64,000 nucleotides of DNA from Rhizobium sp. CIAT894 (GTDB taxonomy: Bacteria > Pseudomonadota > Alphaproteobacteria > Rhizobiales > Rhizobiaceae): positions 1,677,001 through 1,741,000 of the forward strand of contig NZ_CP020947.1 of NCBI RefSeq assembly GCF_000172795.2, read 5' to 3'. The position numbers and the translations under genes are program-made. Positions within the stretch are counted from its first letter, which is position 1. Each line of letters opens with the position of its first letter. This document shows, piece by piece, positions 12,324 to 58,628 of this stretch. The notes beneath the pieces were generated by a model. The model was given only the letters and a program-made list of their open reading frames with translations. It was not told the origin of the DNA and searched no databases.

Positions 12324-12970
12324 GACTTATCCTTTTGGGGCCGCCGGGCGCGGGTAAGGGAACCCAGGCCCAGCGGATCGTGGAAAAGCACGGCATTCCG
12401 CAGCTTTCCACCGGCGACATGCTGCGTGCGGCGGTTAACGCCGGCACCGATGTTGGCAAGCGCGCCAAGGCGGTCATGGACGCCGGCAAACTCGTCTCGG
12501 ACGAGATCGTTATCGCCATCGTCTCGGAGCGAATCGATCAGCCAGATTGCGCCAACGGCTTCATCCTCGACGGTTTCCCCCGGACGCTCGTCCAGGCGGA
12601 CGCCACCGAAGCGATGCTGAAGGCAAAGGGTCTCGGTCTGTCCGTCGTCATCGAATTCCGCGTCGATGATGAGGAACTGGTCCGTCGTGTTGCCGGTCGC
12701 TATTCCTGCGCACAGTGCGGCAGCGTCTATCACGACACCGACAAGGTTCCGGCTGCCGAAGGCGTGTGCGACAAGTGCGGTTCCACGCACTTCAAGCGCC
12801 GTCCGGATGACAACCCGGAGACCATGACGGCTCGGCTGCAGGTCTACTACAAGGAAACCTCGCCGCTGATCGGCTATTACCATGCCAAGGGCAAACTCAG
12901 GTCCGTGGACGGCATGGCGGAGATCGATCAGGTGACGGCCGAGGTCGAAAGTATTCTTTCCAAGCTTTAA
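12320..12970 (+). CDS. adk: Adenylate kinase
   Basis: A 216-residue adenylate kinase that converts ATP and AMP to two ADP in the cytosol. The P-loop [10 protein letters not shown] is at residues 7-16, the AMP-binding region includes [10 protein letters not shown], and FILDGFPRT is at residues 81-89. The LID domain carries four cysteines (C130, C133, C150, C153), the zinc-binding long form seen in many bacteria. The ATG overlaps the secY stop (ATGA), the conserved secY-adk arrangement. Confidence 0.98.
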
Positions 12971-49271: not shown

Positions 49272-49306
49272 GGACCAAAGTCCTGCCTGAGCTAGTACCT
49301 AGGTCC
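49272..49306. promoter_or_regulatory. Paired GGAC-N4-GTCC sites, pair A
   Basis: GGACCAAAGTCC (49272-49283) and GTACCTAGGTCC (49295-49306) lie 23 bp apart. The same arrangement occurs at 52292-52325 and 56809-56842. The next gene on the + strand is the Gly/Asn-rich protein at 49394; the minus-strand DUF883-like gene starts 161 bp away on the other side. Confidence 0.65.
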
Positions 49307-49393
49307 CGTTGCATTCTGTCTTCGGAACAGCGAAAATTGTCTGGGGTCTATATTGCAGAGATACGGTGCAGAACAGGTGAACGAGGTTATGGC

Positions 49394-49915
49394 ATGAGTT
49401 TCTCGAAACGCGATTTTCTGAGATTGGGCGGCGGCGCAGCCGTTGCTCTCTTTGCTGTCGCATCACCGCTGACCTTGAACCTCGACGGCCCCCTTCCTGT
49501 TCTGGCGGCAGGATGCGCGCAGGCAAAAGACGGCAATAACGGCAATGGAAATGGTGGCGGTAACGGCAATGGGGGAGGGAACGGTAACGGCGGCGGGAGC
49601 GGAAACGGTGGCGGGAACGGTAATGGCGGCGGCAACGGTGGCGGCAATGGCAACGGTGGCGGCAACGGCAGTAGCAGTTCGGGAAATGGGAATTCCAGCA
49701 ACGGATCTTCCTCCTCTTCCAGGGAGTCGTCAGAAGGATCGGTGGCAAGCGCGACCGAAGCTTCCGACGGCTCGATCGACGTCCGGCACACGAACGGCAT
49801 TACCGAAACCCTGCGGAGTGGCCGCTACGTCATGAAGGACGGGAAGGGCCGGACGATCATCAGCAGGCAAGCGACGGCAAACGATGTCCGCCGCCTTAGC
49901 CGCTACCTCCGCTGA
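49394..49915 (+). CDS. Exported Gly/Asn-rich protein with Tat-like leader
   Basis: A 173-residue protein. The leader SFSKRDFLRLGGGAAVALFA resembles a twin-arginine signal in which the first Arg is Lys (KRDFLRL), followed by a hydrophobic stretch and a likely cleavage after VLAA. Residues 47-92 are an almost pure Gly/Asn tandem repeat (GNGGGNGNGGGN), then a Ser-rich linker. The last 60 residues (SIDVRHTNGITETLRSGRYV onward) form a short folded-looking module. No family is recognised; a surface or matrix role is possible. Confidence 0.8.
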   Translation: MSFSKRDFLRLGGGAAVALFAVASPLTLNLDGPLPVLAAGCAQAKDGNNGNGNGGGNGNGGGNGNGGGSGNGGGNGNGGGNGGGNGNGGGNGSSSSGNGNSSNGSSSSSRESSEGSVASATEASDGSIDVRHTNGITETLRSGRYVMKDGKGRTIISRQATANDVRRLSRYLR

Positions 49916-49980
49916 AACATCAGCCATACAGCCGACGATATCCTATTCCAAATGCCTGTCGCCGGGACATGTGAGCGGTT

Positions 49981-50604
49981 TTAGCGCCGTTCGCGCCATT
50001 GGAGAGCCGCTTCCGTCCTGTTCGAGACGCCGAGCTTGCTCAGAATCTGAGTCATATGGTGCTTCACGGTTTTTTCCTGCAGGTTGAGACGCAAGCCGAT
50101 ATGCTTGTTCGACAGACCTTGCGAGACGAGATCCATCACCTCGCGTTCCCGCGGCGTCAGACTGTTTTTGTCGGGCGCGCCGCCATTCAGCGAACTCTCC
50201 ATGACCTTCGTCGACATCGTCGGCGAGATATAGCGTGATCCGCTCAGTACCGTCTGAATGGCTTCGGCGAGGCCGCGCGAGCCGACACCTTTGAGAACAT
50301 AGCCCATCGCGCCCCGCTGCAGAGCCCCAAGCAGCGTGTCCACTTCCTCGGATACCGTCAACATGAGCACCTTTGTCGTCGGGCTGCGCGTCAGCACTTC
50401 GCCGATCGCCGACAGTCCGCCGCCGGGCATCGAGACATCGAGCAGCATGATGTCGGGGCGGCTGGTCGCAGCGATCATCGCCGCATCATCGCTGCTGGCG
50501 CCTTCGCCGACGACGGAAAAGCCAGTGATTTCCGACAGGCTGCGCGTTACGCCTTCGCGAAAAAGCGGGTGGTCGTCAATGACCCCGATGGTGATGGATG
50601 TCAT
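49981..50604 (-). CDS. NarL/FixJ-family response regulator
   Basis: A 207-residue response regulator. The receiver domain (1-120) has the acidic pocket D10/D11, phospho-acceptor D56 (IMLLDVSMPGGG) and K105 (YVLKGVG). The LuxR-type helix-turn-helix at 149-205 reads LTPREREVMDLVSQGLSNKH and KTVKHHMTQILSKLGVSNRT. It starts 2 bp after the histidine kinase stop and is surely its partner. It is a candidate for binding the paired GGAC-N4-GTCC sites in this region. Confidence 0.95.
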   Translation of the reverse strand: MTSITIGVIDDHPLFREGVTRSLSEITGFSVVGEGASSDDAAMIAATSRPDIMLLDVSMPGGGLSAIGEVLTRSPTTKVLMLTVSEEVDTLLGALQRGAMGYVLKGVGSRGLAEAIQTVLSGSRYISPTMSTKVMESSLNGGAPDKNSLTPREREVMDLVSQGLSNKHIGLRLNLQEKTVKHHMTQILSKLGVSNRTEAALQWRERR

Positions 50605-50606
50605 CT

Positions 50607-51995
50607 CTAGTCTCCCACGTCCATAGGCTCGAATGTCATGGTCACGGTCGTCCCTCCTTCGCCTGTCTTGACGTCGAACGAGCCTCCCAGGCTATCGACG
50701 CGTTCGCGAAGCCCCACCAGGCCGAGGCTCGTCGGCCTCACCTCGCTCGGATCGAAGCCATCGCCGCGGTCGCTGACCTCGACATGAACGTGACCATTGT
50801 GCGACACGGCTCTGACGGCCTGCTGAATGCCGCCGCCGTGACGATAGGCGTTGTTCAAGGCTTCCTGAACGAAGCGGTAAATACAGATCTTTACGGCAGG
50901 AGCGAGCTCCGGTCCATCATCGTCGATGAGCGTTTCGACACGGGTTTCGGTCTTGTGCTGATGCGCTTCGACCACCCGCATGACGATCTCGGTGATCGAG
51001 GACTTCTCGATCTGCGGGAGTACCAGCCCGCTGCAGATATTGCGGATCTCGGTCATCGCCTCGGCAAGGCTCGAGCGTATCCAGGCGAGCTCCTTTTCGC
51101 GCGCCTCGGGATGGGTCGAAGCATTGATCAACATATCACTGTCCAGCCGCAATGAGGCATAGGCAATGTGCTGGGCCGGACCATCGTGCAGATCGGCGCC
51201 GATGCTGCGCAGATATGTTTCGTTCAGCGCCGCTGCTCGCTGGGAGGCACGCTGCAACCGCCGCTGCAGCCCGCGGTTTTCAGCCAGCAGCGCAGACAGA
51301 TCGTCGACCCGTTCTTTGAGATCCCTGCGTTGTGCTTCTATCGTGCGGCTAACCCGGAACACCAGGACGGAGAGAACGAGGAAAAAGATTGCCGTCAGAG
51401 CGGCGACGGCGGCCCAGCTGCGGAGTCTGGCATGGGCCAGACTGTCGCTCAGTCCTTCCGCCGTCTCGTAGAATTCGATCACGGCGACCGCCTGTCCGGA
51501 CCATGGCTGGAGCACCGGATTGTAGATTTCCATCAGCGGCTTGCCGAGCGCCCGCTCCTTGTCGCTTTCCGGATCGCTGGCGATCTCATAGCGGGCGACG
51601 AGGGACCCTGCGAAGGCTTTCTGGAGCTTGTCGTTGACCGGAAACGTCCTGCCCATCAGCTCCTTCTCGTTCGAATAGAGGATGGTGCCGTCGCTTCGCC
51701 ACAGCTTGAACGAAACAAGGCGCCTGCCGAGCGCCCCTTGACCCAGCGTCTCGTCCAGAGCCTGAGCGCTGCCTTCGTCCAGCAATGACGCCTTTTGCAT
51801 GTCGGGAAGTAGCGGCGCTACGACGCTGTCCACATAGAGCGCCGTCGCAGCGCCGGAATTGTGGATCACCGCCTCCTCTATCAGGTGGGTTACGAGAATG
51901 CCCACCAGGAACATGGCGGCGATCGATATGAGCCCGCCCGCGATGAAGAATTGGGAGGCGAGCGAGCGGGCATTCCAGCGGCGAAGCCAATTCAT
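50607..51995 (-). CDS. NarL-type (HPK7) sensor histidine kinase
   Basis: A 462-residue membrane kinase. Two membrane helices (about 16-38 and 194-214) enclose a periplasmic sensor domain of about 155 residues. The HisKA_3 box carries H270 in SIGADLHDGPAQHIAYASLR. The ATPase domain shows NAYRHGGGIQQAV, SDRGDGFDPSEV and SLGLVGLRERVDSLGGSFDV. It is the second gene of a three-gene minus-strand unit: 58-aa membrane protein, kinase, response regulator. Confidence 0.94.
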   Translation of the reverse strand: MNWLRRWNARSLASQFFIAGGLISIAAMFLVGILVTHLIEEAVIHNSGAATALYVDSVVAPLLPDMQKASLLDEGSAQALDETLGQGALGRRLVSFKLWRSDGTILYSNEKELMGRTFPVNDKLQKAFAGSLVARYEIASDPESDKERALGKPLMEIYNPVLQPWSGQAVAVIEFYETAEGLSDSLAHARLRSWAAVAALTAIFFLVLSVLVFRVSRTIEAQRRDLKERVDDLSALLAENRGLQRRLQRASQRAAALNETYLRSIGADLHDGPAQHIAYASLRLDSDMLINASTHPEAREKELAWIRSSLAEAMTEIRNICSGLVLPQIEKSSITEIVMRVVEAHQHKTETRVETLIDDDGPELAPAVKICIYRFVQEALNNAYRHGGGIQQAVRAVSHNGHVHVEVSDRGDGFDPSEVRPTSLGLVGLRERVDSLGGSFDVKTGEGGTTVTMTFEPMDVGD

Positions 51996-52058
51996 TTTGA
52001 TACCGGTAAGAGTCTTGCCGAGTAACCTATCGCTTCCTCGAAATTTTTCCAGACAGCA

Positions 52059-52235
52059 TCAGGGCAGATCCCTGGTATCGAAGATTTCAGAGCCTCTTAT
52101 GCTTTTGGTCAACTGCAGCGTGTCGCCCGACATGGCTGCGCCGAAGACGTAGAGAAGGGCGGCAAGCACGGCGACAAGGGCGATGACGCACACGTTGCAG
52201 GCGTCATTCACTCGGGATCTGTTGCTCTGGGTCAT
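52059..52235 (-). CDS. Small membrane protein (58 aa) heading the two-component operon
   Basis: A 58-residue protein: MTQSNRSRVNDACNVCVIAL leads into a single membrane helix (VCVIALVAVLAALLYVFGAA) and a polar C-terminus (TLQLTKSIRGSEIFDTRDLP) that would be periplasmic. The ATG at 52235 follows GTGAAGGAGATCCTGAC, a strong ribosome-binding site. The kinase gene starts 63 bp downstream on the same strand. It might be an accessory or sensing partner of the kinase; this is inferred from position only. Confidence 0.7.
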   Translation of the reverse strand: MTQSNRSRVNDACNVCVIALVAVLAALLYVFGAAMSGDTLQLTKSIRGSEIFDTRDLP

Positions 52236-52291
52236 GTCAGGATCTCCTTCACCCCTTGAAACGGCACGCTCCGGTGCGCGTTCCACCCTCG

Positions 52292-52325
52292 GGACTTCGG
52301 TCCGATGCCTCTCGGACCTAGGTCC
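52292..52325. promoter_or_regulatory. Paired GGAC-N4-GTCC sites, pair B (includes a 16-bp perfect palindrome)
   Basis: GGACTTCGGTCC (52292-52303) and GGACCTAGGTCC (52314-52325) are 22 bp apart. The second extends to a perfect 16-bp palindrome, TCGGACCTAGGTCCGA (52312-52327). The pair sits 57-90 bp upstream of the 58-aa membrane protein/kinase/regulator unit, so it fits autoregulation by that two-component system. Confidence 0.7.
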
Positions 52326-52551
52326 GACCCCGTAGACGTCGGCGGTCGCAGCCGCCTTTTGCCGGGGTACGCTGCTCCGGGGAGAAATTGAATAGCGGGC
52401 GCCGGAGCGCATGTCCGAGATCGTCGAGGCGGTGGCCGAGCGCGTCGAAGCGCGCCACGGAGCTTGTCCCAGCGGCAGCATGAGCGCGCTGGTGGTTGCC
52501 GGTCGTGCTACATAATCGCCTTCGGCGAAAGCCGATGCGCCAATCGCGCAA

Positions 52552-52580
52552 TTCCTACAATCATCATACTATTTTATAAT
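52552..52580 (+). promoter_or_regulatory. Possible promoter of the FecR-like/GGDEF-EAL operon
   Basis: TATAAT at 52575-52580 is a perfect -10 box in an otherwise GC-rich region, 54 bp before the FecR-like ATG. The -35 candidate TTCCTA (52552-52557) is at 17-bp spacing but only a partial match. Confidence 0.4.
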
Positions 52581-52633
52581 CATTCTTAAGGTGAATGTGC
52601 TTCACTCGCACCAAGGCCGAGGGAATAGCATTC

Positions 52634-53665
52634 ATGTCGACAATATTTCGAATTCTGATCGCAGCACTGATCCTGCTGCCGACAGCCGCCTATGCGACTG
52701 CCGACGACTGGCGGGTCGTCAAGGCGACGGATCAAGTCAAGTATACCGTCGACAGGACGAACTGGGTGGACCTGCGCGCCGGCGAGGTGGTTCCCAACCG
52801 GGCATGGGTCTCGACTGGCCCGCGCGGGCGAGTTCAGCTTGCCAGAGGGGTGGAGAGCATCACCTTCCAGCCAAATACGCTTGCCGCCATCGCCACCAAC
52901 GAAGCCGCGGCCATGAAGACGCAGATCTACCAGCAGGTCGGCTCGCTGGACCTTGAAATCGAGAAGCGAAGCCAGCCTCATACGGCTGTACAGACGCCCT
53001 ATCTCGCGGCCGTCGTCAAAGGAACGATCTTTCACGTCACGGTCGGCAGGGCGAAAGCGTCCGTCTCAGTGGATCGCGGCCTGGTCGAGGTCACCTCCTT
53101 CGCCAGCGGCCAGCGATCGAACGTGGCGCCGGGGCAGAGCGCTGCTGTCGACAAGAAGGCCGGCATGACGGTGGCGGGCCGGCTGTCCAAGCCGGAGATC
53201 ACTTCCGTTGCACCGTCGGTCGCCCAGATCCCGGCCGTCGGCACCACGACACTCGCCGGCGCCACCGAAGCGGCCGAGACCAAGAACACCTCTTCGGCGA
53301 CAAGCAAGAGCACCAGTTCCAGCGCGAGCAGCGATGATGATGACAGCGCAAACACCAGGAGCAACGGCAATTCCGGAAACGGCAATAACGGCAATGGCAA
53401 CGGCAATTCCGGTGGCAACAGCGGCGGAAACGGCAATTCCGGTGGAAACGGCAACGGCAACAGCGGCGGAAACGGCAATGGCAACGGTCATTCCGATGAC
53501 AGCGGTAACAACGGGAACGGCCACGGTCATTCCAATGACAGCGGTAACAACGGAAATGGCAACGGCGGCGGCAATGGAAACGGAAACAGCGGCAAGGGCG
53601 ATAACAACGGCGGTGGCAACGGTCACGGCAATTCCGGCGATCACGGCAAGGGCAAGGATAAGTGA
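52634..53665 (+). CDS. FecR-domain exported protein with long Gly/Asn-rich tail
   Basis: A 343-residue protein. A signal peptide (STIFRILIAALILLPTAAYA) precedes a FecR-type beta domain at about residues 25-170 (VRLAGEV-like VDLRAGEVVPNRAWVSTG, TPYLAAVVKGTIFHVTVG). A Ser/Ala/Asp linker is followed by a 110-residue Gly/Asn/Ser repeat tail (GNGNGNSGGNSGG) with His-containing units, ending GDHGKGKDK. Here FecR is not next to a sigma factor but overlaps a c-di-GMP enzyme by 4 nt, as in FecR-CHASE2 gene pairs. The ATG at 52634 follows GAGGGAATAGCATTC. Confidence 0.85.
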   Translation: MSTIFRILIAALILLPTAAYATADDWRVVKATDQVKYTVDRTNWVDLRAGEVVPNRAWVSTGPRGRVQLARGVESITFQPNTLAAIATNEAAAMKTQIYQQVGSLDLEIEKRSQPHTAVQTPYLAAVVKGTIFHVTVGRAKASVSVDRGLVEVTSFASGQRSNVAPGQSAAVDKKAGMTVAGRLSKPEITSVAPSVAQIPAVGTTTLAGATEAAETKNTSSATSKSTSSSASSDDDDSANTRSNGNSGNGNNGNGNGNSGGNSGGNGNSGGNGNGNSGGNGNGNGHSDDSGNNGNGHGHSNDSGNNGNGNGGGNGNGNSGKGDNNGGGNGHGNSGDHGKGKDK

Positions 53666-56439
53666 GAGATAGCAAGGCGGCTGGAGATTATCTCTCCAAC
53701 GGCATCAGCACGATCACGGTTCGGCTTTTGCTGATCGCCGTGATGCTGGCGCTGCCGATATTCGGCTCCAGCCTCGGCCTCCTGCAGGCGATCGACAACA
53801 GCCTTTTCGCCAAGCGTTTCCAATGGGCGCCTCGCACCGCCACCGGCAATATTGTCTTCGTTGCGATCGACAAACATTCCCTGGACGCCGTTGGAACCTG
53901 GCCCTGGCCACGGAGCATCTACGCGACACTGCTCGACAAGCTGGTCGTCTCCGGCGTCAAGGACGTCTTTCTCGACGTCGATTTCAGCGCGTTCTCCAGC
54001 ACTGAGGAGGACGAGCGTCTTGCCGCGGCGCTTGCGAGATCCGGGGGAGGAGTTCTTTTGCCGGTGTTCCGGCAGCAGGAGAAGGCGTCATCGTCCGAGA
54101 CGGCGGTGACGAGGCCGATCCCGCAACTCCTTCAGAATGCCTGGCCCGCATTCGCCAATGTCGCGATGGATGCGGACGGGATCGTCCGCCGCTTCGATCT
54201 GGGAAGCCAACTCGACGGGAGCCCCACCCAGTCCGCCGCCTCGGCCCTTGGCGGGATCGGCAGCAGTTCCGGAGCCTTGCCGATCGATTTCTCGATAAGG
54301 CCCGACACCGTCCCGACATTCTCGTTGTCCGACGTGCTGAACGGGGCCGTGCCGGCCGAGGCGATCAGAGACCGCTCGGTCGTGGTCGGAGCATCGGCGG
54401 CGGAGCTCAAGGATATTTTCGCCGTTCCCGTCTACGGCGCTATTTCAGGCCCGCTCATTCACGTGCTTGCGGCAGAGACGCTGCTCCAGAACCGCTTCCT
54501 CAGGACGGTCGATCAGGCTCCGCTGGAACTCGTGTTTGCGATCTTGCTGATCATCGGCGTGATCCGCAGCCGTTCGGCCGGCATGATCACGATCATGGCA
54601 GTCGGACTGCTCATCGTTGTCATCGGCGAGATAGGCGCATTTCTGCTGCAGTCGCGGAACGGGATCCTTGCCGGAACGGCCGGGCCGTGGTTGACGCTGC
54701 TCTTCGCATGGATGCTCGCGTTCAACGAACGCGTCGACCTCGGCCGAATGCTTGTCGCCATCGCCAATACCGAGGCCCGAAACACCCGGCGCCTGATGAG
54801 ACGGATCATCGCCGACAGTTCGGACGGTGTCGTTGCATTCGATAGCAATCTGAGGATCGTCGAGGCGAGCGAATCCGCAAAGACCGTATTGCGAGCCGGG
54901 GTCGGCGCCTCGCTTCTCGGCGCCGCCGATACCGCCATCATCGACATCGTGCGCAGACTGGTTTCTGAGCACGATGCCGAGCCGGGCAAGGTGCACACAG
55001 CCCTCGTCGATTTCGCCGGCACCGGAGCTTCGAAGGCCACCCATTACGAAGCGTCCGTCACGATTTCGCCGATCGAACAGCCGGATGCGCGCCCGGCCGT
55101 GGCGCGGTCGCGGTTTGCGGGTTGCCTGATCATACGAGACATCACCGCACGTTATGACTACGAAGAGCGGCTCAAGAAGCTGTCCGAACTGGACGAACTC
55201 ACCGGGCTGCTCAATCGCCGGGAATTCGCGTCTCGGCTGGCAGCCCTCCAGGGCGGGGCCTTCGTCTCGGTGCTGGATATCGAGCGTTTCTCATCGCTTT
55301 GCGCCACGCTGGGACGCGACGTCGGCGACGAACTCCTGCAAGCCGTGGCGGCGAGGCTCGGGCATGCATTCGCCGGTGATCTGCTGGCAAAACTGGACGG
55401 TGACCATTTTGGCATCGCCATTGCCGCGACGGATGCAACGCCGATCGAAGATTTCGCCGATGGTCTTCTGGCGCTGTTCGAAGAGCCTGTACACCTCGGC
55501 GGTGCCGCCGTGCCGATCTCGGTCCACCTCGGAATAGCCCGCTCAAGTGATGCCGCCTCCGGTGCGATCCTGAATGCCGCTGAATCGGCGCTCGATGCTG
55601 CGAAGGCCGGGCAAGGCCGGCGATGGTGCTCCTTCGATCCGTCTACCGCCGTTCGCCAGGCGCGGTCGCGCCGGCTGGAGCGGGACATGCGCGACGCTCT
55701 TCAAAACCGGCAGTTCTTCCTGCTGTTCCAGCCGCAGATCGATTTTGCCAGCGGGCGCCTTGTCGGCGCGGAAGCCTTGATCCGATGGAGCCATCCCGAA
55801 TTCGGTCTGATATCTCCGGCCGAGTTCATCCCGATTGCCGAATCCTCTGGTTTGATCTGTGATATCGGCCGCTGGACGCTGTTTGAGGCTTGCACCGAGG
55901 CCGCCGCCTGGCCTGGTGAATTCGGCGTCGCCGTCAACGTCTCGGCACTCCAGTTCGAGCAGTCCGACATCGAGGCCGATGTGAGGGAGGCTTTGTCCAG
56001 CAGCGGGCTTCCTTCCTCCAGGCTGTGCCTCGAGTTGACGGAATCCGCCTTCCTCGACCAGGGCGGTGCCGTGATCGCAAAGATGCGCGCGCTTCGCCAA
56101 ACGGGAATCGTCATTGCCTTGGACGACTTCGGCACCGGCTACTCGTCGATGAGCTATCTTGCCGATCTTCCTCTCGACAAGCTCAAGATCGACCAGTCCT
56201 TCGTCCGGCGAATGTACGGAAATCCGGCGGTATTGGAAATCGTGCGGGCGATCATTTCACTTGCGCACGGCTTGAACCTGCAGGTGGTCGCCGAAGGTGT
56301 CGAGACCGAGCTGGAAGCCGAAGCGCTGCATCGGCTCGGATGCGAGACGGGGCAAGGCTATCTCTTCGGGAGGCCGCAAGAGGCTCCTCGCATGCTTTCC
56401 AGATGGAATGTCGAAAAACGTCTATCCGCTGAGGTCTGA
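53662..56439 (+). CDS. CHASE2-PAS-GGDEF-EAL protein, predicted c-di-GMP phosphodiesterase
   Basis: A 925-residue membrane protein. An N-terminal helix and an extracytoplasmic CHASE2 domain (about 40-280; VFVAIDKHSLDAVGTWPWPR, VFLDVDFSAF) lead to about three membrane helices (285-355), then a PAS-like segment, GGDEF and EAL domains. The GGDEF motif is degenerate, D579-G580-D581-H582-F583. The EAL domain is intact: E704-A705-L706, DDFGTGYSSM at 821-830 and EGVETE. It therefore probably hydrolyses c-di-GMP. The GTG start overlaps the FecR-like stop (GTGA). Confidence 0.92.
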   Translation: MRDSKAAGDYLSNGISTITVRLLLIAVMLALPIFGSSLGLLQAIDNSLFAKRFQWAPRTATGNIVFVAIDKHSLDAVGTWPWPRSIYATLLDKLVVSGVKDVFLDVDFSAFSSTEEDERLAAALARSGGGVLLPVFRQQEKASSSETAVTRPIPQLLQNAWPAFANVAMDADGIVRRFDLGSQLDGSPTQSAASALGGIGSSSGALPIDFSIRPDTVPTFSLSDVLNGAVPAEAIRDRSVVVGASAAELKDIFAVPVYGAISGPLIHVLAAETLLQNRFLRTVDQAPLELVFAILLIIGVIRSRSAGMITIMAVGLLIVVIGEIGAFLLQSRNGILAGTAGPWLTLLFAWMLAFNERVDLGRMLVAIANTEARNTRRLMRRIIADSSDGVVAFDSNLRIVEASESAKTVLRAGVGASLLGAADTAIIDIVRRLVSEHDAEPGKVHTALVDFAGTGASKATHYEASVTISPIEQPDARPAVARSRFAGCLIIRDITARYDYEERLKKLSELDELTGLLNRREFASRLAALQGGAFVSVLDIERFSSLCATLGRDVGDELLQAVAARLGHAFAGDLLAKLDGDHFGIAIAATDATPIEDFADGLLALFEEPVHLGGAAVPISVHLGIARSSDAASGAILNAAESALDAAKAGQGRRWCSFDPSTAVRQARSRRLERDMRDALQNRQFFLLFQPQIDFASGRLVGAEALIRWSHPEFGLISPAEFIPIAESSGLICDIGRWTLFEACTEAAAWPGEFGVAVNVSALQFEQSDIEADVREALSSSGLPSSRLCLELTESAFLDQGGAVIAKMRALRQTGIVIALDDFGTGYSSMSYLADLPLDKLKIDQSFVRRMYGNPAVLEIVRAIISLAHGLNLQVVAEGVETELEAEALHRLGCETGQGYLFGRPQEAPRMLSRWNVEKRLSAEV

Positions 56440-56724
56440 CGGCTTGCCGGATTTGCGCTGATGCGGCGCAGCTCCGATCGAAAGTTCGCGCATCGCACGG
56501 ATGACGTGCTGCTCTATTTCGCAACAGGTCTCATCATATTCCCGCACCATGTACGAATTGGGCCGCCGCCTTCGAAGAGCGTCGCGCGCTTCGACTGCCA
56601 TCTGGTAGGCCTCGAAGAGTTCGAGCTGCCACGGGTCGCGCGCTTCCATGATCAGCGTCCGCATCAGCGGCAGACGCATCGCCAGGCGCCTGCGTCCAGC
56701 TTCCCGGCGGTTGGATCGTGCCAT
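56422..56724 (-). CDS. Small helical protein (100 aa), unknown function
   Basis: A 100-residue Arg-rich, mostly helical protein (RREAGRRRLAMRLPLMRTLI, LFEAYQMAVEARDALRRRRP, YDETCCEIEQHVIRAMRELS). I recognise no family. The ATG at 56724 follows GCAGGAGACTGAATGG, supporting a real gene. Its 3' end overlaps the EAL protein's last 18 bp on the opposite strand. It lies divergent from the DUF1236 gene, with operator pair C between them. Confidence 0.65.
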   Translation of the reverse strand: MARSNRREAGRRRLAMRLPLMRTLIMEARDPWQLELFEAYQMAVEARDALRRRRPNSYMVREYDETCCEIEQHVIRAMRELSIGAAPHQRKSGKPSDLSG

Positions 56725-56808
56725 CCATTCAGTCTCCTGCCTGCGCCTGCTTATGCAGCGTCCTTCGATGCTGAAATAGCGCCGGCAACGGTGATTGAAA
56801 TGCGTTTA

Positions 56809-56842
56809 GGACCAAAGGCCGGGGTCCGTCGGACTGAGGTCT
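56809..56842. promoter_or_regulatory. Paired GGAC-N4-GTCC sites, pair C
   Basis: GGACCAAAGGCC (56809-56820) and GGACTGAGGTCT (56831-56842) are 22 bp apart, the spacing seen in pair B. They lie 82-115 bp upstream of the DUF1236 gene and 85 bp upstream of the divergent 100-aa gene. Each half-site carries one deviation from GGAC-N4-GTCC. Confidence 0.55.
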
Positions 56843-56923
56843 GGGGCGTGGAACGACCTTGCCTGTAGCCAGTTGGTTTGACAGCGGTCACCAAGGCCGC
56901 GCCTCAAACACAAGGAGGAGAAA

Positions 56924-57319
56924 ATGCTCTCTAGGCTTATCGTAAGCGCGGCAGCCGTGACGCTGATATCAGGCGTCGCGTTCGCCCAGTCCTCGACCGT
57001 CAATGGTGCGGCGGGTGGAGCGGTCACCGGGGCGATCGTCGGCGGGCCTGTTGGCGCTGCTGTCGGCGGCGTAGCCGGCGCAGTCGTCGGCACGGCAATC
57101 GATCCGCCGCCGCAAAAGGTCGTCACCTATGTCCGCGAGGCTCGGGCGCCGTCCGCCCGCGTGGTCGTGAAGGAAAAGATCGTTGTCGGCCAACCGCTGC
57201 CGGAAACGGTTGTCGTAACGCCTATTCCGGATGATCCGACCTATGCCTATGCAGTGGTCAACGATCAACGCGTCATCGTCGAACCGTCGTCACGCAAGGT
57301 GATCCAGGTCATCAAGTGA
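56924..57319 (+). CDS. DUF1236 exported protein with glycine-zipper segment
   Basis: A 131-residue protein. The signal peptide (RLIVSAAAVTLISGVAFAQS) is followed by a glycine-zipper-like segment (AAGGAVTGAIVGGPVGAAVG, residues 29-55) that could insert in or span a membrane. The C-terminal DUF1236 domain reads EKIVVGQPLPETVVVTPIPD and YAYAVVNDQRVIVEPSSRKV. These proteins are common and often stress-induced in rhizobia; function is unknown. The ATG at 56924 follows AAGGAGGAGAAA. Confidence 0.85.
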   Translation: MLSRLIVSAAAVTLISGVAFAQSSTVNGAAGGAVTGAIVGGPVGAAVGGVAGAVVGTAIDPPPQKVVTYVREARAPSARVVVKEKIVVGQPLPETVVVTPIPDDPTYAYAVVNDQRVIVEPSSRKVIQVIK

Positions 57320-57330
57320 CCTGATTCTCC

Positions 57331-57351
57331 ACGCGGCCCCTGCCGCGTTTT
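57331..57351 (+). terminator. Terminator after the DUF1236 gene
   Basis: ACGCGGC (57331-57337) pairs with GCCGCGT (57342-57348) around a CCCT loop, with a TTTT tail (57348-57351). It begins 11 bp after the stop codon. Confidence 0.65.
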
Positions 57352-57385
57352 CCTTCCTGAGATCATCGCTCAGAGTTTGATACCA

Positions 57386-57418
57386 GCCGCACGGCGGCCG
57401 GCAACGTCGCCGTGCGGC
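57386..57418. promoter_or_regulatory. Strong hairpin upstream of the small membrane/BA14K genes
   Basis: GCCGCACGGCG (57386-57396) and CGCCGTGCGGC (57408-57418) form a perfect 11-bp stem with an 11-nt loop and only TTAAGC after it. It could be a leader structure of the next mRNA or a back-up terminator. Confidence 0.5.
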
Positions 57419-57467
57419 TTAAGCAGAGATGATCATGAAAACCAGGACAAGCGCCGAGGAGAGGAAC

Positions 57468-57632
57468 ATGATCTATTCCGAAGAGAAATCCGGTGGACTG
57501 GCCGTGCCGGTGATCGCCATCCTGCTGGCCATCGCCGGCATTCTCGCCGCGCTCGTCGCCACCGCCGGCCAGCATGGCAGTGCCGGTCGCGTCTGGCTTC
57601 CCCCGGCTCGACAACAGGGGGCGGGAAAATGA
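57468..57632 (+). CDS. Small single-pass membrane protein (54 aa)
   Basis: A 54-residue protein: a short polar N-terminus (IYSEEKSGG), one membrane helix (LAVPVIAILLAIAGILAALV) and a polar tail (HGSAGRVWLPPARQQ). The ATG at 57468 is preferred because GAGGAGAGGAAC precedes it; in-frame ATGs at 57429 and 57435 lack a ribosome-binding site. Its stop overlaps the BA14K gene start (ATGA), so the two are translationally coupled. Confidence 0.7.
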   Translation: MIYSEEKSGGLAVPVIAILLAIAGILAALVATAGQHGSAGRVWLPPARQQGAGK

Positions 57633-58210
57633 ACGCGCTCGTATCCGCAGCCTTCGGCATCGTCAGTTCGGTCGGGGCCTGCATCGCCGCCGCCTCCGTT
57701 GCCTCCCACGTCGTGGCGGATTCCGAGCCTCATGGCCTCCGGGACCTTGCCGGCCCCGATCTCTGGACGACGGAGCCGGTGAAAGTCGATCCGCGGCAGC
57801 AGGATTATGAACGGATTGCGCCTCTCTATTCCAGCTATGTCACCGAGGCGCCGGCCATGGTGACGGCAAAGACGAAGCCGGAGCCCGCCGGCATATCGAC
57901 CGCACTTCAGACACCACAGCCGAAATTTTCGGCCGAACACCTTGCCTGGTGCACGCAGCACTATCGCTCCTTCGATCCCTCGACCAACAGCTATCGATCC
58001 TATAGCGGCGAAATCCGCGCCTGCTCTTCGCCATACGAGTCGGATCTCGCCGAGTTCGAAGGGGAGGCCGGCACGAAAGTGAATGCTCAGGCGGCAGCCT
58101 GGTGCGCCGCTCGCTACAGGTCGTATCGACCGGCAGACAACACTTATCAACCATGGGACGGGCCGCGGCGCAGCTGCGAAACACCGCTCGTCATCGCTGG
58201 GAATAATTGA
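57629..58210 (+). CDS. BA14K-family protein with two BA14K repeats
   Basis: A 193-residue protein with an N-terminal hydrophobic helix (ALVSAAFGIVSSVGACIAAA) that may be a signal or anchor. Two BA14K motifs are visible: WCTQHYRSFDPSTNSYRS at residues 107-124 (ending in C132), and WCAARYRSYRPADNTYQPWD at 158-177 (ending in C183). The motif usually occurs once, near the C-terminus, and is named for a Brucella 14-kDa immunogen with lectin-like properties. ATG 57629 overlaps the preceding stop by 4 nt. Confidence 0.85.
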   Translation: MNALVSAAFGIVSSVGACIAAASVASHVVADSEPHGLRDLAGPDLWTTEPVKVDPRQQDYERIAPLYSSYVTEAPAMVTAKTKPEPAGISTALQTPQPKFSAEHLAWCTQHYRSFDPSTNSYRSYSGEIRACSSPYESDLAEFEGEAGTKVNAQAAAWCAARYRSYRPADNTYQPWDGPRRSCETPLVIAGNN

Positions 58211-58246
58211 CTTAGCCGATGTCTGATATCGCGCTGAGTTGCAGTC

Positions 58247-58258
58247 AGACCAAAGTCC
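58247..58258. promoter_or_regulatory. Single GGAC-N4-GTCC-like site D
   Basis: AGACCAAAGTCC (58247-58258) matches the first member of pair A in 11 of 12 positions. No second site exists 22-23 bp to either side. It lies 55 bp upstream of the 104-aa gene at 58314. Confidence 0.45.
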
Positions 58259-58313
58259 GTATTACAAACGCTGCGGTTGTGATATTCGGTTGCATTGGGT
58301 CGGAGAGCAGGGG

Positions 58314-58628
58314 ATGGCGACGGCGCTGATAACCGAAATTCAACGGGCGCAGACAAGGCTGCGGTTCTTGAGCAGGACCGAGCGGGGAGTGCTGATCATT
58401 CGCATCCTCCGCGAGTTGAAGACGCATCGGCAGGAGGTTCTCGGCAACGTGCCGGCCGACCGCTGTGTCTGGATCGACAGGCTCATCGCATCCGTTTCCT
58501 CGACGATATCGGAAATCGCCAATATGCAGGACGTCGAGTTCAATCGTGTCCTGAGCGAATTCGAAAAGCTTATGGCGACGCTCCAGAACATCTCGCATCC
58601 GGAGAAGTCGACGAGAACCATTCACTGA
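58314..58628 (+). CDS. Small helical cytosolic protein (104 aa), unknown function
   Basis: A 104-residue protein predicted almost all-helical (TALITEIQRAQTRLRFLSRT, GVLIIRILRELKTHRQEVLG, ISEIANMQDVEFNRVLSEFE). No family is recognised and there is no signal or membrane segment. ATG 58314 follows GGAGAGCAGGGG. It carries site D upstream, so it may share regulation with the other genes of this cluster. Confidence 0.6.
   Translation: MATALITEIQRAQTRLRFLSRTERGVLIIRILRELKTHRQEVLGNVPADRCVWIDRLIASVSSTISEIANMQDVEFNRVLSEFEKLMATLQNISHPEKSTRTIH

Follow-up and report, generated by a model that had tools for sequence, protein, structure and literature searches.

Conserved paired palindromes beside EcfG-type promoters are putative operators of a NarL-type response regulator in Rhizobium sp. 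CIAT894

What role do the repeated GGAC-N4-GTCC palindromes play that surround a two-component system in Rhizobium sp. CIAT894? They lie in a stretch of 64,000 nucleotides (contig NZ_CP020947.1, positions 1,677,001 to 1,741,000, forward strand), referred to here as the window, and an original prediction had described them as spaced pairs of 12-base-pair (bp) sites that define a local regulon of the NarL-type regulator encoded among them. The paired palindromes are genuine, are not a product of chance, and are conserved, and they are very probably docking sites of a two-component regulator. What the original prediction missed is a predicted EcfG-type promoter (GGAAC-N16/17-NGTT) at a fixed 7 bp from the proximal palindrome. 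The reading that we favor, and consider probable, is that the phosphorylated regulator activates the EcfG holoenzyme from its paired boxes and autoregulates its own operon.

All seven site coordinates given in the original prediction were recovered in the window. The identity GGAC-N4-GTCC is exact at three of them (49272, 52292, and 52314), and one mismatch is present at each of the other four (49295, 56809, 56831, and 58247). The perfect 16-bp palindrome reported earlier is TCGGACCTAGGTCCGA at 52312-52327, and an extra exact site, standing alone, occurs at 12582. Single sites with at most one mismatch are no commoner in the window than expected (27 versus 32.9); the excess is confined to spaced pairs. 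With at most two mismatches in total and a distance of 21 to 24 bp, three pairs were counted, versus a mean of 0.14 and a maximum of 2 in 200 shuffles, none of which reached three, so the claim that the pairs are not due to chance holds. Over start-to-start distances of 12 to 79 bp, the same mismatch limit gave five pairs in the window (two at 22, one at 23, one at 53, and one at 75). The genome-wide search suggested earlier, run with exact sites and a gap of 9 to 13 bp, returned one occurrence in the 6.66-Mb genome, 52292/52314.

The Rhizobium etli EcfG1 motif is GGAAC-N16-CGTT (PMC3892343). The putative promoter of the small-protein/kinase/regulator operon matches it exactly and that of the DUF1236 gene with one mismatch (AGTT), and the candidate promoter of the Gly/Asn-rich gene does not match it. 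The fixed distance was counted over the window and 40 fetched loci, with pairs taken regardless of GGAAC and both orientations pooled. Among 148 distinct pair sequences, 26 have a GGAAC that starts 7 bp past the proximal box, versus 0.17 expected per offset. Lesser peaks occur at 29 bp (6 sequences), where GGAAC is farther away by one box-period (as in arrays of three boxes), at 6 bp (6), and at 17 bp (4). Three boxes with a 22-bp period were also observed between the divergent operon and DUF1236 promoters of two relatives (L064:6144-6263 and L066:6022-6142), where the middle box could serve both. Components of an EcfG system appear to be encoded in the genome: NepR is present (PF18557, E = 3.1e-14), and beside it lie a 185-amino-acid (aa) sigma-like open reading frame and a PhyR-like one, both candidates named by reading. 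With 7 bp between the proximal box and the -35 element, bound dimers would be placed to contact EcfG polymerase.

The arrangement is conserved beyond this strain. Regions of up to 20 kb were fetched for 17 loci with a regulator at least 74% identical to that of the window (16 relatives; L052-L068) and for a further 23 loci with more distant regulators (L032-L051 and L069-L071); gene starts for the locus queries csbD?, BA14K, and LDT are approximate, and no claim draws on the queries 75aa (wrong frame) and BRCT? (six stops). The boxes and their 22- to 24-bp period are kept beside the regulator across Rhizobium, with diverged spacers and the same downstream genes. In front of the operon, 14 of the 15 loci with a match to the 58-aa gene (window included; the miss is L067) have a pair whose proximal box is followed at exactly 7 bp by GGAAC-N16/17-CGTT. 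In front of DUF1236, a pair followed by GGAAC-N16-NGTT is found in 16 of 18 loci (window included), at 7 bp in 14 and at 6 bp in 2; of the exceptions, L061 keeps the promoter with a pair below threshold, and L067 has a 21-bp pair without GGAAC there. The Gly/Asn-rich gene has a pair above threshold in 11 of 18 loci, window included. The single site before the 104-aa gene also persists, with GAC-N4-GTC kept in 11/11 aligned loci, again including the window. In these 11 loci, the block after that box (window 58259-58300) is well conserved, and the relatives show GTGTTGCAAACGCTACGGTTGTGATA followed by CGGTTG; a GGAAC-type promoter was looked for in this block across the aligned loci and was not found.

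A larger set of 80 named loci (L208-L287) shares species with the fetched relatives, and the conservation counts of the two sets are not independent. A composite of pair plus EcfG-type promoter was present in 54 of the 80, with 93 composites in all and none in a reversed-sequence control. Its presence tracks the identity of the regulator: composites occurred in 30/30 loci at 85% identity or more (two or more in each), in 24/26 at 70 to 84%, and in 0/24 at 55 to 69%. In 18 of these last 24 loci, including Ensifer species and Sinorhizobium meliloti 4H41, pairs nevertheless lie within 1.6 kb past the 3' end of the regulator gene, in the region where other loci have the Gly/Asn-rich gene. The commonest spacings in the 24 loci were 21, 22, and 23 bp (11, 14, and 23 pairs), with 0 to 6 pairs at the other spacings from 12 to 44, and another 28 regulator loci (27 lie in different genera of this family) gave a peak at 22 bp (9 pairs; 0 to 4 elsewhere). 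Given that the distant loci have pairs and lack composites, the pair goes with the regulator family, and the EcfG coupling of the operon is particular to one branch.

The regulator itself has a receiver and a C-terminal GerE/LuxR helix-turn-helix domain (PF00072 and PF00196 in Pfam, both E = 1.1e-19) and shares 99% identity with the regulators of Rhizobium chutanense C5 and R. esperanzae SEMIA 4089, which probably places the strain in the etli/leguminosarum group of Rhizobium. The phospho-acceptor aspartate and switch residues (D10, D11, D56, T83, and K105) were found in 43/43 aligned regulators. All aligned regulators of at least 55% identity have the same recognition helix, EKT[VI]KHHMT, and those at 44 to 49% differ from it slightly. 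Across 161 genomes of the family, the composite (at most two mismatches, with a fixed-spacing pattern that misses box spacings other than 22 bp) occurred in 7 (13 matches, with one control match) and the regulator (E ≤ 1e-50) in 38, in searches that scored at most 51 (genus) or 19 (family) candidates per genome. All seven composite-bearing genomes are among the 38 with the regulator (P = 2.6e-5, ignoring shared ancestry). This co-occurrence, the conserved position, and the invariant recognition helix support the regulator as the putative binder that the original prediction named, and the predicted autoregulation is supported as well.

We also looked for DUF1236 genes in 16 genomes without a close regulator, 11 of which had no match at E = 1e-50 and five of which belong to the genus (best regulator matches: G003, 48%; G028, 47%; G032, 46%; G025, 39%; and G010, E = 1.5e-21). 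In 11 of these genomes, 12 DUF1236 loci were found, and the composite was absent from 11 of the 12. The five trusted full-length loci (L318-L322) all keep GGAAC at -59 to -70, three with a GTT -10 element, and no pair lies within 250 bp upstream of any of the five. The starts of the other seven (L323-L329) were extrapolated and are unreliable, and these loci were judged by a whole-locus composite search.

Table 1. Coordinates of the palindromes, putative promoters, and associated genes within the window.
Feature	Position	Strand	Remarks
Operator pair 1	49272-49283 + 49295-49306	+	23 bp start to start; upstream of Gly/Asn-rich exported protein gene
GGAAC, possible weak -35 of Gly/Asn-rich gene	49324-49328	+	17 bp after pair 1 (7 plus one helical turn)
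Gly/Asn-rich exported protein	49394-49915	+	173 aa; putative target
NarL/LuxR-type response regulator	49981-50604	-	207 aa; receiver and GerE helix-turn-helix; proposed pair binder
Sensor histidine kinase	50607-51995	-	462 aa; HisKA_3 and HATPase_c; membrane placement by sequence reading
Small membrane protein (by reading)	52059-52235	-	58 aa; first gene of kinase/regulator operon
EcfG-type promoter GGAAC-N16-CGTT (putative), small-protein/kinase/regulator operon	52260-52284	-	7 bp after proximal box
Operator pair 2	52292-52303 + 52314-52325	-	22 bp apart; putatively autoregulatory; includes palindrome 52312-52327
Operator pair 3	56809-56820 + 56831-56842	+	22 bp apart; upstream of DUF1236
EcfG-type promoter GGAAC-N16-AGTT (putative), DUF1236	56850-56874	+	7 bp after proximal box
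DUF1236 protein	56924-57319	+	131 aa; export judged from reading its start; putative target
Single box	58247-58258	+	upstream of 104-aa gene; conserved block after box
104-aa protein	58314-58628	+	putative target

Genome-wide searches used a pair model (R1), built from 33 sequences including the three pairs of the window, and a composite model (R2), built from 26 sequences of relatives with this genome excluded and with orthologues included for three of the four promoters that the model recovers. First-look candidates were scored for 150 of 1637 (R1) and 150 of 3442 (R2). At E < 0.01, R1 found only the three island pairs in this genome (pair 1, which belongs to the training set, at E = 0.0011). 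R2 matched the operon's own promoter (3.3e-12), the DUF1236 promoter (2.7e-11), C1:1014572 (8.8e-8), and C1:3298027 (7.9e-4), all rough E-values. The first three are conserved sites rather than blind predictions, given that the training set holds their orthologues (for the third, L139 from G007). C1:1014572 precedes the gene of a Gly/Ser-repeat protein (190 aa, judged by reading to be exported) and C1:3298027 a second DUF1236 gene; with these two likely members elsewhere in the genome, the suggestion of a purely local regulon does not stand. A weak pair, GGACCATAGTCC-N10-GGACCTCGGGCC, was seen at G000:C1:2716022-2716049 (L162), about 130 bp before the gene for an exported Gly-rich protein (start and export by reading). 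No GGAAC occurs 7 bp from it, and it is a possible further member of the regulon. A second weak genome match to the pair model is at C1:2222722.

In 40 genomes of the genus, a composite pattern with at most three mismatches gave 70 matches in 28 genomes versus 21 in the backward control, and 40 of the 70 had zero or one mismatch; the pattern has fixed spacing and misses box spacings other than 22 bp (e.g., L062 and L323). Where the genes that follow composites were read in relatives, DUF1236, Gly-rich proteins, and the 58-aa/kinase/regulator operon predominate; a BA14K-like and a single-domain receiver protein also occur. One composite (L174:6688, minus strand, G005) precedes the gene of a single-domain protein of 127 aa that reads as receiver-like, which suggests an extension of the regulon to other signaling proteins in some species. 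At L168:2904-2992 in G201, which belongs to another genus, a DUF1236 gene and the gene of a 101-aa protein whose start is signal-like are preceded by two back-to-back composites.

We propose that a signal, probably related to the envelope, would lead the kinase to phosphorylate the regulator, which would then occupy two adjacent boxes cooperatively at a distance of two helical turns. In front of the operon and of DUF1236, the bound dimers would touch RNA polymerase carrying EcfG (ECF15) and recruit or stabilize it, so that the regulator would activate its own operon in a positive autoregulatory loop. The regulon (this operon, DUF1236 proteins, Gly-rich exported proteins, and perhaps the 104-aa protein) would then form a subset of stress-type promoters with a second signal as an added gate, and these cell-surface genes may depend on two stress signals arriving together. 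The exported, low-complexity nature of the targets suggests a function in envelope protection.

Several observations weigh against this proposal. Composites near the regulator are missing from two loci at 72 to 74% regulator identity and from the whole 55 to 69% clade, where 18 of 24 loci have pairs, so coupling to EcfG is not universal. The -10 of the Gly/Asn-rich gene is poor in the window (GGTC), although four pair-bearing relatives have GGAAC-N16-CGTC 17 bp after the pair, and no GGAAC is recognizable at the 104-aa promoter in the window or the aligned loci. EcfG-like sites alone barely exceed background in the genome (132 versus 107), and loose composite patterns in this genome compare poorly with the backward control (6 versus 3 and 24 versus 26). 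Only matches with zero or one mismatch stand out from the loose patterns, and these are the two island promoters; the loose match at C1:3298028 was kept because its downstream gene is DUF1236 and R2 also finds the site. With 150 candidates scored per model, further members may have been missed. Finally, G032 (L323), whose best regulator is 46% identical, has a composite with 23-bp spacing before a DUF1236-type gene, which argues against a strict link to the regulator unless that 46% regulator has the same specificity.

The best surviving alternative, which we consider unlikely, is that the regulator binds the pairs and represses, with its dimers blocking the EcfG holoenzyme and the kinase pathway setting or lifting the block. 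The boxes are very near the -35 element, and NarL can repress, as at frdA (PMC4549865). However, they precede the promoter by a fixed 7 bp rather than lying within it, and the 17- and 29-bp peaks are upstream as well, positions that would be more usual for an activator.

Somewhat more doubtful is that another LuxR/NarL-type protein binds the pairs and that the neighboring regulator is incidental. The genome holds 24 regulator matches at E = 0.001 (the regulator itself included), and the G032 composite could be read this way; against it, all seven composite-bearing genomes of the family search have the regulator family, the pairs adjoin the regulator in other genera, and the next match listed in this genome is only 35% identical. 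A little less credible again is that the promoters are not EcfG promoters, with another sigma factor using overlapping elements and GGAAC-N-GTT forming part of an extended operator. The DUF1236 -10 is AGTT or GGTT in many species, which would fit this, as would the poor -10 of the Gly/Asn-rich gene, but the operon carries the exact R. etli EcfG motif, and in genomes that lack a close regulator, the trusted DUF1236 genes have no pairs yet retain GGAAC at the equivalent position, three of the five with a GTT -10. Chance palindromes or RNA hairpins without a regulatory role would agree with the unenriched single sites but merit virtually no weight, given the shuffles, the conservation of pairs, spacing, and distances across species, and the position of the boxes upstream of promoters, from which they would not be transcribed.

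Returning to activation by the phosphorylated regulator, a stricter form of it seems to us about evenly balanced between true and false. Here the promoter would work like a lock with two keys: EcfG holoenzyme alone would be insufficient, two cooperative DevR-like dimers on one helix face, at a fixed distance from an ECF-type -35, would be the obligate co-activator at a defined subset of alphaproteobacterial general-stress promoters, and the pair module would have been acquired, in parallel with the regulator, by EcfG promoters that DUF1236 and Gly-rich envelope genes already had.

The actinobacterial DevR/DosR and OsdR systems resemble this one in having a NarL-type regulator and boxes in closely packed sets, and they differ from it in phylum and targets. 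The DevR recognition helix shares EKTVK with the regulator here. In the best-fit orientation, 66 boxes gave GGACC-N3-GTCC, which by eye against the OsdR consensus fits a DevR/OsdR-type box; the G and CC of the OsdR box AGGGCCGATCGGCCCT line up in register with GGAC-N4-GTCC (PMC5069765; also compared by eye). DevR binds two or more packed boxes cooperatively next to the -35 element and is autoregulated (PMC3029386). In the DevR promoters analyzed there, the proximal box overlaps the -35, whereas here a 7-bp gap precedes an ECF-type -35. E. coli NarL is the best solved-structure match to the whole regulator by sequence (1a04, E = 1.2e-35), sharing the receiver and GerE domains, but it prefers 7-2-7 sites (engineered TACCCCTAAAGGGGTA, PMC4549865), unlike GGAC-N4-GTCC. 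The operator thus appears closer to DevR/OsdR boxes than to NarL 7-2-7 sites. Orthology to NarL was rejected, with a score of 147.4 bits versus an NCBIfam cut-off of 250 and an operator unlike the TACC-type 7-2-7 sites.

Known layers of EcfG control act on PhyR, NepR, and their kinases, and to our knowledge, gene-by-gene tuning of the alphaproteobacterial EcfG response is poorly known. The locus resembles the EcfG (ECF15) general stress response with PhyR/NepR in its match to the R. etli motif and in the NepR gene with its sigma- and PhyR-like neighbors. The component parts are of known kinds; the accessible parts of the open-license literature searched held no second DNA-bound regulator at EcfG promoters and no such stacking on them. 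If the proposal is correct, a DNA-bound two-component activator on EcfG promoters would be a control layer at the level of the promoter, and the DUF1236 and Gly-rich exported proteins of rhizobia would gain a regulator and an operator. Brucella CenR is an OmpR-type regulator, unlike the NarL-type regulator here. The CenR/EssR-EssS envelope stress system is a related case of alphaproteobacterial two-component control that touches BA14K and PhyR-adjacent genes, and neither paired GGAC boxes nor EcfG-stacked operators were found in the accessible part of its description (PMC10746171).

The gene order at the locus is the Gly/Asn-rich exported protein (+); the regulator, kinase, and 58-aa membrane protein (all -); a FecR-domain protein and a CHASE2-GGDEF-EAL protein (+); a 100-aa gene (-); and DUF1236, BA14K, and the 104-aa gene (all +). 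Pfam and NCBIfam searches gave no match for the Gly/Asn-rich and 104-aa proteins, and the kinase had no sensor family match in Pfam. The 58-aa gene had a match in 14 of 17 orthologous loci. The regulon assigned earlier to the paired sites is largely supported, and control of the divergent 100-aa gene is not: the EcfG-type promoter beside pair 3 points only at DUF1236, and none toward the 100-aa gene was found in the 11 loci that have it (window included), so we rejected control of that gene. A DUF1236 gene, not equated with that of the window, is among the three genes most strongly induced by aluminum in a Rhizobium phaseoli strain (PMC8909678). FecR was also rejected as a target; a pair lies 342 bp before it in the window, and none lies within 420 bp in the four relatives with the gene. 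The FecR-domain gene, whose product has a Gly/Asn-rich tail, overlaps the CHASE2-GGDEF-EAL gene by a few bases (window 52634-56439). Both were matched at the equivalent place in L052, L053, L055, and L061 and neither in the other six of L052-L061, so the two genes come or go together between the operon and the 100-aa/DUF1236 genes.

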